A stretch of 38,982 nt of DNA from Clostridia bacterium. Its GTDB lineage: Bacteria; Bacillota; Peptococcia; Peptococcales; BICA1-8. The translations under genes and the position numbers were made by a program. Location: the NCBI GenBank assembly GCA_030154225.1, contig JASKKI010000017.1, positions 1 through 38,982 on the forward strand, given 5' to 3'. Of the stretch, positions 15,712-23,802 are shown piece after piece (the first letter of the stretch is position 1; each line of letters starts with the position of its first letter). The notes beneath the pieces are model-generated. The model did not search any database. It saw nothing but the letters and a program-made list of their open reading frames with translations, and was not told where the DNA came from.

Positions 15712-15745
15712 TACAAAAAATTAAATATTACCTCATCTCTCCGGA

Positions 15746-15929
15746 GGTGGGGTAGAGGCGCGAAAATCATAAGTATTACTAGGGAGATAAGGGAATTTAT
15801 GATCTAGTAAAAAAGGGATCTTCGCCGAAGTCTAATAGTTTCCCTAAATTATTAGGCTGGGGCTGCACTGAATAAGTGCAGAACTGTCATCTATAGCTAC
15901 CCAGGTTATAGATGGAGTGCTATCTCATT
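15746..15929 (+). ncRNA. Lysine riboswitch (L box) aptamer
   Basis: The region contains the conserved L-box blocks in order: GTAGAGGCGCGAA (15752-15764), AAGTATTACTAGGGAGA, AAGGGATCTTCGCCGAAG, GGCTGGGGCTGCACTGAATAA and the closing GTGCTATCTC. P1 forms between 15746-15755 and 15920-15929 (10 pairs including G-U). The aptamer binds lysine. It is followed by a terminator and then dapB, so excess lysine should switch off the downstream diaminopimelate genes. Identification rests on matching the known motif order. Confidence 0.95.
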
Positions 15930-15943
15930 GGAGAATGGGGATA

Positions 15944-18545: not shown

Positions 18546-19556
18546 GTGAAAAAACTTAATGTTGCTATTGTTGGAGCTACCGGAGCAGTTGGTCAAGAAA
18601 TTTTAAAGGTAATGTCTGAAAAAAAATTTCCATACAAGAATTTAAAACTACTTGCCAGCCAGCGTTCTGCCGGTACAGAAATTGAATATCAAGGCAAAAA
18701 ATATCTTGTGGAAGAAACAACAGAAAACTCTTTTGATGGTATTGATTTAGCTCTATTTGCAGGTGGGCCTGCAAGTAGAGCCTTCGGTCGTTTTGCCCAG
18801 CAAAAAGGTGTGGTGGTAATTGATAATAGTAGTACTTTTCGTTTAGAGCCAGATGTACCATTAGTGGTTCCCGAAGTTAATGCAGAGGCTTTAAAAAATC
18901 ACCAAGGATTAATTGCTAATCCTAATTGCTCTACAATTATAATGGTAGCTGCCCTTTATCCACTTTATAAGTTTAGTAAAATTAAAAGAATTATAGTCTC
19001 TACTTATCAAGCAGTATCAGGTGCAGGAAAAGAAGGGATTGAAGAATTGGAACTACAGGTCAAACAAAACTTGGAAGGAAATAAGGTAGAACCTAAAGTT
19101 TTCCCTTATCAGATTGCATATAATTTAATTCCCCATATTGATGTTTGGGTTGAAGAAAATTACACCAAAGAAGAAATGAAGATGGTTTATGAAACTCAGA
19201 AAATTTTAAATGATTATGAACTTGCCGTTACTGCTACTACTGTAAGAGTTCCGGTTTATCGCAGTCATTCAGAGTCAATATACATTGAAACAGAGGAGCC
19301 TATTTCCTTAGAAAAAGCAAGGGAATTATTGTGTAATAGCAAAGGTATTATCCTTCAGGATAATCCATCTCAAAACTTATACCCAATGCCATTATATACA
19401 TCTGATACTGATGAGGTTTATGTTGGCAGAATAAGGAAAGATTTATATACACCTAATGGATTAAATTTATGGGTTGTTGCAGATCAAATACGTAAAGGTG
19501 CTGCTACTAATGCTGTGCAGATTGCTGAAGAATTATTGAAAAATAATCTAATTTAA
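18546..19556 (+). CDS. asd: Aspartate-semialdehyde dehydrogenase
   Basis: Asd converts aspartyl phosphate to aspartate semialdehyde, the branch point to diaminopimelate, threonine and methionine. The 336-residue protein has the NADP-binding GATGAVGQEIL near residue 10 and the active-site cysteine C128 in NPNCSTI. The segment TYQAVSGAGKEGIEEL and a RKDLYTPNGLNLWVVADQIRKG-type C-terminus are also present (the latter spans residues about 299-320). GTG 18546 follows AAGGAGG at 18531-18537. Order dpaA-dpaB-asd-dapG-dapA equals that of Bacillus. Confidence 0.96.
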   Translation: MKKLNVAIVGATGAVGQEILKVMSEKKFPYKNLKLLASQRSAGTEIEYQGKKYLVEETTENSFDGIDLALFAGGPASRAFGRFAQQKGVVVIDNSSTFRLEPDVPLVVPEVNAEALKNHQGLIANPNCSTIIMVAALYPLYKFSKIKRIIVSTYQAVSGAGKEGIEELELQVKQNLEGNKVEPKVFPYQIAYNLIPHIDVWVEENYTKEEMKMVYETQKILNDYELAVTATTVRVPVYRSHSESIYIETEEPISLEKARELLCNSKGIILQDNPSQNLYPMPLYTSDTDEVYVGRIRKDLYTPNGLNLWVVADQIRKGAATNAVQIAEELLKNNLI

Positions 19557-20791: not shown

Positions 20792-20803
20792 GAGGTGAAA
20801 AAT

Positions 20804-21682
20804 ATGGTATTTGGTCGATTACTAACAGCCATGGTTACCCCTTTTAATGAAAAATTAGAGGTGGACTATAAAAAAGCCCAGGAGTTAGCCCAGTATTTAA
20901 TTTCCAGAGGTAATGATGGAGTTGTCGTTGCTGGTACTACAGGTGAATCACCAACGTTATCAAAAAAAGAAAAAGTAAATTTATTTAAAGCTATAAAAGA
21001 AGTAATAGGTAATAAAGGTCAGGTTATTGCAGGAACAGGCTCCTATTCTACTAAGGATAGTATTGAATTAACTGAAGCAGCAGAAGAAATTGGTGTTGAT
21101 GGAGTAATGTTAGTAGTACCATATTATAATAAGCCGCCGCAAGATGCATTGTATGAGCATTTTAAAACTATTGCCCAATCTACAAAACTACCTATTTTAC
21201 TCTACAATGTTCCTGGTCGTACCTCAACTAATATGTTACCTGAAACTGTAGCCAGGCTATCCCAGATCACTAATATTGTCGCTATTAAAGAGGCGGCAGG
21301 TGACATGGATCAGGTAAGTTCACTTAAAAATAATGTTGCAGAAAATTTTATGATTTTTAGTGGGGATGACTCTTTGACGTTACCTATGCTAGCTTTAGGC
21401 GCCCATGGTGTAATTAGTGTTGCCGGGCATCTTGTAGGAAATGAAATCAAGGAGATGATAGATAGTTTCATTAATGGCAATGTTTTAAAAGCCCAACAGT
21501 TACACCAGAGGTTATTCCCCTTATTTAAAACTATGTTTATTACGACCAACCCTATACCCGTAAAGACTGCAGTTAATCTGCTAGGAATTAATGTGGGAGG
21601 TATGCGTCTACCTATGATAGAAGCTACTGAAGAACAAAAAATTAAAATTAGCCAGGTTTTAAAAGAAGTAGGTAAACTTTAA
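20804..21682 (+). CDS. dapA: 4-hydroxy-tetrahydrodipicolinate synthase
   Basis: DapA condenses aspartate semialdehyde with pyruvate. The 292-residue protein has the canonical length and the motifs [19 protein letters not shown] and VAIKEAAGD, with the Schiff-base lysine at K162. ATG 20804 lies 7 nt after AGGAGGT (20790-20796); the GTG at 20795 is inside that site. It is the last gene of the operon and is followed by two terminators. With DapB it supplies both diaminopimelate and, through DpaAB, dipicolinate. Confidence 0.96.
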
Positions 21683-21683
21683 A

Positions 21684-21738
21684 AAACGGGCTGTACCTGT
21701 TTATCTTTTAGAAGCGTACCATTATGGTGCGCTTTTTT
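21684..21738 (+). terminator. Tandem terminators after dapA
   Basis: A weaker hairpin (AAACGGG at about 21684-21690 with CCTGTTT at 21696-21702) overlaps the dapA stop. A strong one follows: AAGCGTACC (21712-21720) and GGTGCGCTT (21726-21734), 9 pairs with a 5-nt loop and a T-run to 21738. Confidence 0.85.
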
Positions 21739-21755
21739 AATACTTTCCAACTCAA

Positions 21756-21907
21756 GGCTCTAAGGAATTATCAAAACTCCCCGACACTTAACTGTAGATA
21801 AAATTTATAAAAGGACTAAATTTACATATTGTAGGTTGTTCTTATTCTTTTAAAGATAATTATATTAATTGTCGGGTCAAACAGTTGATAATTCTAGTCT
21901 TAGAGCC
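21756..21907. repeat. Nested long-range inverted repeat (152 nt), MITE-like or structured RNA
   Basis: Three pairs of arms nest in order: GGCTCTAAG (21756-21764) with CTTAGAGCC (21899-21907), GAATTATC (21765-21772) with GATAATTC (21887-21894), and CCCGACA (21780-21786) with TGTCGGG (21870-21876). All are perfect complements. The interior is AT-rich and has no coding frame of note. The pattern fits a small non-autonomous element with long terminal inverted repeats, the remains of an insertion sequence, or a large RNA domain. No flanking direct repeat was found. Confidence 0.6.
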
Positions 21908-22056
21908 TCTGCGTTCTTTTATTTTCACTCGCCGATGTTTCGTTTTTGATAAATAATAAGGGTTTGTTTTATATTAGACTTTATCAACAGTCTGAAAATT
22001 ACCATAGGTGATTTTGTTTTTAATATAAACGGTAATAATAAATAAGTAGGTAAACC
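21908..22056 (+). other. Noncoding spacer with hairpins, including a terminator-like one
   Basis: No gene is visible. TTAGACT...AGTCTGA (21974-21995) forms a small hairpin. AAAATTACC (21995-22003) pairs with GGTGATTTT (22007-22015), followed by GTTTTT, a terminator-like structure. Together with the nested repeat upstream this suggests a transcribed noncoding segment, or decayed mobile DNA. Confidence 0.4.
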
Positions 22057-22085
22057 TTGTCCTATATTAATAAATATCTTATAAT
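22057..22085 (+). promoter_or_regulatory. Sigma-A-like promoter of RNase J gene
   Basis: TTGTCC (22057-22062) and perfect TATAAT (22080-22085) are 17 nt apart, placing the transcript start about 45 nt before the RNase J start codon. Confidence 0.6.
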
Positions 22086-22137
22086 TATTTAAGGTGTTTC
22101 TGGTTCGGCAAATAAAATATGGAGAGGAGGAATAAAA

Positions 22138-23802
22138 ATAAAGGAAGAAAATAAAATAAGCCTTATTCCCCTGGGCGGTCTTGGGGAAATAGGCAAAAAT
22201 ATGATGATTATAAGATACAAGGATGAAATTATTGTTATCGATTCAGGATTAATGTTTCCAGAAGATGAATTACTAGGAATTGATGTTGTAATACCTGACA
22301 TTACCTATTTAATAGAGAATCGTAGCCTGGTAAAAGGGATTGTTTTAACTCACGGTCATGAGGATCATATTGGCGGTTTACCATATGTTTTACGTGAGCT
22401 AAATGTTCCGGTTTATGGTACTAAACTCACTTTAGGACTTTTAGAGGGCAAATTGAAAGAAACTAATTTTTCTACAGGTGTTAAACTAAATGTTGTTAAA
22501 CCTAGAGATACTATAAGCTTAGGTTCTTTTAAAATAGAGTTCATTAAAGTGAGCCATAGTATCCCTGACTCTGTTGGATTAGGTATTCATACTCCAGTAG
22601 GGATTATTCTTCATACTGGAGATTTTAAGTTTGATCAAACACCTGTTGACGGAAAAGTTACAGATTTTAACCGTATTGCTGAGTTAGGTGAAAAAGGGGT
22701 CATGGTATTATTGTCCGATAGTACTAATGTGGAGAGACCCGGATTTACTATGTCTGAAAAGGTTGTAGGACAAACTTTTGATGAAAATTTCCGATTAGCA
22801 AAAGAGCGGATTATTATTGCAACTTTTGCTTCCAATGTCCATCGTATTCAACAGGTTATAGATTCTTCTTATAGACATGGGCGTAAAGTGGCCATTGCCG
22901 GAAGAAGTATGGTAAATGTTGTAAATATTGCTTCCGAATTAGGATATTTAACTATTCCTGAGGATACCATAATTGAACTGGATGAGGTTGGTAATTATCC
23001 TCGTAACAAAGTTGTATTATTAACTACAGGTAGTCAAGGTGAACCAATGTCTGCTTTAACCCGAATGGCTATGTCTGACCATAGAAGAGTAGAAATTGAA
23101 CCAGGTGATACTGTTATTATCTCAGCTACACCTATTCCGGGTAATGAAAAACTGGTATCCCGGATCATTGACCAGCTATTTAAACTAGGCGCCGAAGTAA
23201 TTTATGAGTCTGTTTCTGGTATTCATGTTTCTGGTCATGCCAGTAGAGAAGAATTAAAATTCATGTTAAATCTGGTTAAACCCAAGTTTTTTGTACCTAT
23301 TCACGGGGAATACCGGATGTTAATAAAACATGCCCAGTTAGCCCAGGAAGTTGGTATACCGGCTAGTAATGTCTTTGTTGCCGAAAATGGACATGTGCTG
23401 GAATTTTCCAATAAAAAAGGTGCTATAGCAGGTAGAGTAACTTCTGGCAGGGTTTTAGTAGATGGTTTAGGTGTTGGTGATGTGGGAAATATTGTTCTTA
23501 GAGATCGCAAACAATTATCCCAGGATGGTATTTTAATTGTTGTAGTCACAATTAACAAAGAGCTTAAACAAGTCGTTGCTGGACCAGATATTGTTTCACG
23601 AGGTTTTGTATATGTCAGAGAAGCAGAAGAATTAATGGAAGAGGCAAAAGAAAAAGTTAAATTAGCCTTGGATAAATGTAGTGAAAAAAATATTACCGAA
23701 TGGGCTGCAATTAAATCAAATGTCAGGGATGTTTTAGGTAAATTTTTATATGAAAAAACCAGAAGACGTCCAATGATCTTACCAATTATCATGGAAATTT
23801 AG
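22138..23802 (+). CDS. rnj: Ribonuclease J, apparent AUA start
   Basis: RNase J is a metallo-beta-lactamase/beta-CASP nuclease with endonuclease and 5'-3' exonuclease activity. The conserved PLGGLGEIGKN and the zinc motif HGHEDHIGG (H72, H74, D76, H77) are intact, as are SHSIPDSVG and HTGDFKFDQTP. The first ATG in frame (22201) would delete the conserved PLGG segment. No in-frame ATG or GTG, and no TTG, lies upstream. AGGAGG at 22125-22130 stands exactly 7 nt before ATA 22138, giving MKEENKISLIPLGG and 554 residues, the normal family length. Position before tepA-ylzJ matches Bacillus rnjB (ymfA). Confidence 0.85.
   Translation: MKEENKISLIPLGGLGEIGKNMMIIRYKDEIIVIDSGLMFPEDELLGIDVVIPDITYLIENRSLVKGIVLTHGHEDHIGGLPYVLRELNVPVYGTKLTLGLLEGKLKETNFSTGVKLNVVKPRDTISLGSFKIEFIKVSHSIPDSVGLGIHTPVGIILHTGDFKFDQTPVDGKVTDFNRIAELGEKGVMVLLSDSTNVERPGFTMSEKVVGQTFDENFRLAKERIIIATFASNVHRIQQVIDSSYRHGRKVAIAGRSMVNVVNIASELGYLTIPEDTIIELDEVGNYPRNKVVLLTTGSQGEPMSALTRMAMSDHRRVEIEPGDTVIISATPIPGNEKLVSRIIDQLFKLGAEVIYESVSGIHVSGHASREELKFMLNLVKPKFFVPIHGEYRMLIKHAQLAQEVGIPASNVFVAENGHVLEFSNKKGAIAGRVTSGRVLVDGLGVGDVGNIVLRDRKQLSQDGILIVVVTINKELKQVVAGPDIVSRGFVYVREAEELMEEAKEKVKLALDKCSEKNITEWAAIKSNVRDVLGKFLYEKTRRRPMILPIIMEI

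Follow-up and report, generated by a model that had tools for sequence, protein, structure and literature searches.

The window, a stretch of 38,982 nucleotides from a Clostridia bacterium, carries a nested inverted repeat in the spacer between two genes. The upstream gene we take to be dapA and the downstream gene is presumably that of RNase J (rnj). The features of the locus, in coordinates of the window, are as follows:

20795–21682, plus strand: dapA, upstream gene (open reading frame)
21712–21738, plus strand: terminator-like hairpin and T-run, AAGCGTACCATTATGGTGCGCTT + T, directly 3′ of dapA and to the left of the element (by eye)
21749–21994, minus strand: most likely a left-truncated copy of an IS1182-type MITE; it matches own-genome copies and its core can be aligned to copies in a second genome, G003
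21755–21774, no strand: left outer and middle arms of the palindrome
21780–21876, no strand: inner palindrome and AT-rich core, CCCGACACTTAA ... TTAATTGTCGGG
21885–21908, no strand: right middle and outer arms of the palindrome
21980–21995, minus strand: surviving terminal inverted repeat TCAGACTGTTGATAAA, with 1 mismatch in 16 to TCAGACTGTYGACAAA
21995–22015, plus strand: hairpin AAAATTACCATAGGTGATTTT, its stem flush with the end of the element; presumed target terminator, right-hand copy
22016–22021, plus strand: T-tract GTTTTT behind this hairpin
22201–23802, plus strand: rnj, downstream gene (open reading frame; the frame opens further upstream)

An earlier note on this DNA had described the palindrome as three nested arm pairs of 9, 8 and 7 nt. 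The nested architecture and the 7-nt arm stand, while the other two pairs are both 10 nt long. The outer arms lie at 21755–21764/21899–21908, the middle arms at 21765–21774/21885–21894 and the inner arms at 21780–21786/21870–21876 (7 nt, or 12 nt at 92% if taken as 21780–21791/21865–21876). The arms are beyond chance: chained together they total 27 nt, while dinucleotide shuffles of these 261 nt never exceed 23 (27 or more in 0/1000) and the other tiles of the window never exceed 21 (0/293 reaching 27). The palindrome occupies the interior of a longer element at 21749–21994. The extent first given to it, 21756–21907, is incomplete, as similarity to other copies reaches 21994 and the outer part on the left lacks about 55 nt. 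The minus strand was assigned such that the surviving end, CAGACTG, is the 5′ end, and the first T of TCAGACTGTTGATAAA complements the base at 21995, at the foot of the hairpin. The element contains no transposase gene; no open reading frame of at least 50 aa (ATG, GTG or TTG start) overlaps 21683–22088.

To compare the spacer between relatives, as the note had proposed, 20 rnj loci were fetched, and dapA was recognised upstream in six of them (the window and five relatives) and not in 14. The spacer is 458 nt long in the window, where it carries the repeat, and 157–216 nt in the five relatives, all of which are without it. The RNase J gene is conserved in 19 of the 20 genomes searched. The downstream hairpin that had been noticed is real (21995–22015), with GTTTTT behind it, though it makes better sense as the target of an insertion than as the terminator of a transcription unit of its own. 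In the window copy this right hairpin is present and no duplicated hairpin is seen; the left end is lost, and any left hairpin copy with it. That 21995–22015 might be a diverged copy of the hairpin on the dapA side was considered and rejected, the common TACCAT..GGTG being too weak to count.

By eye, the rnj frame seems to open at a non-standard codon, a Shine–Dalgarno-like GGAGG being followed by ATA at 22138–22140. Read in the same way, the start in relatives is ATA in L233, L234 and L235, ATA or ATT in L231 and ATT in L236, L244 and L245, while L232 has ATG ahead of ATA. The gene infC starts at AUU, and by analogy a non-standard rnj start reminiscent of it could mean autoregulation. The rnj leader at 22099–22116 (TCTGGTTCGGCAAATAAA), just downstream of a TATAAT-like box, is partly conserved in relatives. 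Elsewhere in the window a lysine riboswitch (15745–15930) lies upstream of lysine/dipicolinate-type genes that start at 18546.

Copies of the repeat and their ends

A single copy without variation had been named as evidence against a mobile element; the repeat turned out to be multi-copy. In the bacterium's own genome (G000, a draft of 2.68 Mb in 126 contigs) pieces of the element occur at about a dozen other places. The pieces 21749–21782 and 21889 to about 22015 recur, adjacent or nearly so, three times on contig C11 and on C47 and C113, and single pieces are found on C66, C52, C119, C5, C110 (two places), C118 and C27, with one more on C122. When a short-form copy was used as the query, G000 and G003, a draft genome from another genus of the same family, were the genomes matched among 60. 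The repeat is found at no fewer than 40 places in G003 (at least 40 matches), many of them at contig ends, so that a single insertion can account for two matches. Nine G003 copies have both ends and measure 322–343 bp, and the G003 copies fold close to one long hairpin (L066, 334 nt, MFE −99.4 kcal/mol). The AT-rich core is missing from the five copies on C11, C47 and C113 and present in the aligned G003 copies and the window copy. Because G003 has the same core, the short own-genome copies look like deletion forms, and the window copy reads as the long form, short by about 55 nt on the left. The five coreless copies had also raised the idea that one MITE sits inside the loop of another; this was rejected, since the G003 copies carry the same core. 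Near the repeat pieces, a further stretch (CCGGCACTTAAT..., its tail long and structured) is common to C118 and C110 (L042 and L045) and is perhaps a second repeat family.

The long, strongly folding palindrome, and the terminator-like hairpins that adjoin the G003 copies, would also suit a functional structured RNA or 3′-UTR element under selection, the multi-copy pattern then being a regulon. We consider this improbable. A structured RNA was among the first suggestions for the repeat, but no Rfam covariance model matched the element at gathering thresholds, the riboswitch being the sole match in the window; a permissive search, run on five loci elsewhere, turned up a single tRNA, and the rest of its matches stayed below gathering. 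The own-genome copies vary through loss of the core or of one end, the repeat is absent from the same spacer in the five comparable relatives, and its ends coincide with those of a transposon.

The two-ended G003 copies have imperfect terminal repeats with the consensus TCAGACTGTcGACAAA; they start with the consensus TCAGACTGTcGACAAAG and finish with ...TTTGTCAACAAGCTG, forming an imperfect inverted repeat. The own genome contains one IS1182-family gene with an open frame, 499 codons on C109, that matches NF033551 with 452.5 bits (cut-off 270) and has the Pfam domains DDE and DUF772. The insertion sequence is 1608 bp long (C109:12787–14394), with left end TCAGACTGTCGACAAAG and right end GTTTGTCTACAATCTG. 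Its left end, at C109:12787, follows the TCAGACTGTYGACAAA pattern with no mismatch; two G003 copies (L079 and L088) have the same left end over 17 nt, and the other G003 ends differ from it at a few positions. Given the many copies, and ends like those of an intact IS1182 in the same genome, the window element is most likely an IS1182-type MITE, and the open frame on C109 gives it a putative partner transposase in the own genome. Of the readings first offered, that of a small transposable element fits, and so does the idea of erosion: the feature looks like a MITE whose ends are of the IS1182 type and whose left end is gone, so that the window retains a fossil copy. Beyond the ends, the best matches between the insertion sequence and the MITE are only 9–18 nt (E 1.1 or worse), which counts against the link between them. 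Many MITEs share little with their insertion sequence beyond the ends. No IS1182 transposase was found in the draft assembly of G003, the genome richest in the MITE, which the draft state or loss of the gene could explain. The IS1182 copies of G004 and G001 (L096 and L097) have different ends (GGGGCTGT...) and by eye no hairpin repeat at them; they may use another target mode.

Hairpins at the insertion points

In six of the nine two-ended G003 copies the same stem-loop lies flush on both sides, over 15–26 nt in the alignments. The two sides of these six score 30–42 with one another, and none of the 72 cross pairs scores above 16; the three other copies lack a matching duplicate (scores 8, 12 and 15). 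These nine are the copies with both ends readable among 30 loci fetched from the 40 or more scored places. A seventh case seems, by eye, to be split across two contigs (L086 left, L073 right). Draft misjoins should give mismatched rather than matched flanks and are therefore an unlikely source of the duplication signal. A perfect stem of 5 bp or more lies flush with the element at 17/21 right ends and 10/15 left ends in G003, and at 7/8 right ends in the own genome, the window copy included (8 of 14 listed places being readable). This compares with 3–7% in shuffles, 3–6% for the G003 ends alone, and 5/21 at +100 nt, the latter suggesting that hairpins are common in these spacers anyway. A mismatch-tolerant flush-hairpin score was too permissive, with a score of 5 in 43% of shuffles and 15/36 in a far control versus 28/36 observed, and perfect stems were used in its place. 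In the own genome, copy C11a has by eye the hairpin pair ATCCGCC-CTAGT-GGCGGAT / ATCCGCC-CAAA-GGCGGAT. The pairings for L086/L073, C11a, Desulforamulus putei, L122 and C109 were made by eye and are unscored. In the left flank of L088 a hairpin stands between an element-like right end (TTTATCAACAAACTG) and a left end, so that a single target hairpin may serve two elements.

Autonomous relatives were collected with the C109 transposase as query over named genomes. Among the best 80 of 497 loci, which were taken, the closest relative is that of D. putei (89%); individual genomes such as that of Bacillus sp. OV166 contribute many copies to the 80, which therefore represent close relatives and not a sample of the family. 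Thirteen loci were left out, eight with a flank missing at a contig end and five with an end not found within 4 substitutions. A flush repeat of 19–42 nt (mean 25.8) is present at both ends in 58 of the 67 measurable insertions, without mismatch in 57 of the 58, and all 58 sequences are distinct. None of 4422 mismatched flank pairs shows the repeat. A stem spans the repeat in 57/58 insertions (the exception is L201), all 58 repeats fold better than shuffles (p<0.05), and at least six T follow within 10 nt in 41/58. A pass without end-finding, on a partly different set of 67 loci, gave a direct repeat score of at least 36 in 58/67 (by eye). Two contig-end copies in D. putei, apparently the two parts of a single insertion, have by eye a 27-nt hairpin in common, which lies on the left of one and on the right of the other. 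Copy L122 of G050 has, by eye, the hairpin on both sides within one contig.

A Listeria plasmid stretch (L250), in which an IS1182 lies between two copies of AGACAGCCGCAATGGCTGTCT, was set against four plasmids without the insertion sequence (L258, L259, L260 and L261). L258, a related plasmid that shows the empty site, is identical to L250 minus the insertion sequence and one hairpin over 1258/1258 letters, so the insertion added the insertion sequence and exactly one hairpin. L259 matches the joined flanks with 1 mismatch, and L261 has one hairpin and a diverged flank. On L260, a Listeria grayi plasmid, the same terminator hairpin lies at 505–525 as the reverse complement of that in L258 and L250, as if flipped. 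The hairpin repeat was found in three of eight IS1182 plasmid stretches (L250, L252 and L254) and not in L251, L253, L255, L256 or L257, in a scan that did not locate the ends of the insertion sequence.

The flanking hairpins might nevertheless not be target duplications, being instead carried by the element or brought about by recombination between pre-existing terminators. A matching pair is indeed lacking in 9/67 IS1182 copies and 3/9 G003 copies; at least seven of those nine IS1182 copies carry a different hairpin on each side, as by eye the C109 insertion sequence also seems to, although pairs that differ would be consistent with copies having recombined later. No two of the 58 duplicated sequences are alike, so they are not part of the element, the 4422 cross pairs give no match, and in the one empty site that was compared letter by letter there is exactly one hairpin. 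It would seem very improbable, more so than a structured RNA, that the hairpins came about in either of these ways. A further possibility is stem-loop replacement of the kind described for IS1272, with coincidental flanking hairpins. IS1272 has a transposase of the same family and also targets hairpins, several of them confirmed terminators (PMC4923244 and PMC5678879, in the text available of each). The available text of PMC5678879 describes deletion of all or part of the target stem-loop without duplication, as does that of PMC4923244 for IS1272/TnSha1. Here the stem-loop is kept and doubled, as two hairpin copies in 58/67 insertions of the relatives and the empty site show, and replacement is in our view the least probable of the explanations considered.

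A putative route of insertion and its relation to known systems

Common ends, many copies, flush hairpins, duplication of the whole hairpin and one exact empty site all point, at the level of sequence, to the same reading: the window feature is very probably a decayed MITE copy that was moved in trans by a DDE transposase of the IS1182 family. The points at which a DDE transposase joins the two strands of its target normally have a near-constant spacing, and target duplications are normally near-constant in length, as set by the transposase. In the route we propose, the IS1182 transposase would act on the MITE ends while the target palindrome is extruded into a cruciform or kept in that form by the transposase. 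The extruded hairpins would bring the two 5′ feet together at the four-way junction. If the hairpins were extruded the feet would be adjacent there, so the stagger would equal the length of the hairpin, whatever that length is, and gap repair would then copy the stem-loop onto both sides. As the right hairpin copy usually keeps its T-tract, transcription probably still ends there and the insertion does next to no harm, an advantage that would favour the spread of the element; the genes ahead of the inserted relatives probably keep a working stop signal. In general terms we favour, with some reserve, the proposal that this IS1182 subgroup and its MITEs read the shape of the DNA and not its sequence, and integrate across the cruciform junction at its 5′ feet, the target duplication being the hairpin itself at any length. 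Terminators would be kept working and would serve as a safe harbour, unlike with IS1272.

According to the available text of PMC12056078 there is little information on IS1182-type transposases, which act with or without target duplication or deletion, and that of PMC7335449 gives target duplications of 2–60 bp for IS1182 in ISfinder. A duplication whose length follows the target hairpin could account for this variability. Whole stem-loop duplication by IS1182 is not shown in the available parts of PMC4923244, PMC7335449, PMC2828477, PMC12056078 or PMC5678879; the comparison covers open-access literature, and the pattern may already be known from subscription papers or ISfinder/TnPedia. The pattern would offer a clean system for testing cruciform formation at terminators in living cells. 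It would also give a simple rule for locating the boundaries of such repeats.

Bacterial MITEs such as RUP, Correia/NEMIS and ERIC are likewise short, non-coding, palindromic and intergenic; the present element differs from them in that it targets a hairpin and that the length of the duplication varies. Group IIC introns home to terminator stem-loops and thus resemble the present elements in their targets; to our knowledge they make no DNA target duplication, and the window has no Rfam intron match. Introns of this group and IS200/IS605 ends were weighed as candidates for the window feature by reading and by the lack of an Rfam match at the element, and were set aside.

Closest among known systems is the IS1182 family with IS1272 of staphylococci, which shares the IS1182-family transposase (NF033551), terminal inverted repeats and, in the available text of PMC4923244 and PMC5678879, hairpin targets, often terminators, without a sequence consensus. 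IS1272 removes the stem-loop sequence, whereas the subgroup described here, with ends near CAGACTGTnGACAAA, appears to duplicate the whole stem-loop. Such an outcome corresponds to pathway b in the structure-dependent model, which is drawn there as a hypothetical alternative, the deletion of the stem-loop being what was observed for IS1272 (PMC5678879, Discussion and Fig 13 legend, as far as its text was available). What was hypothetical there is here the pattern in 58/67 natural insertions and at one empty site. These would provide natural evidence for a whole-hairpin pathway so far only drawn in the accessible text of PMC5678879.
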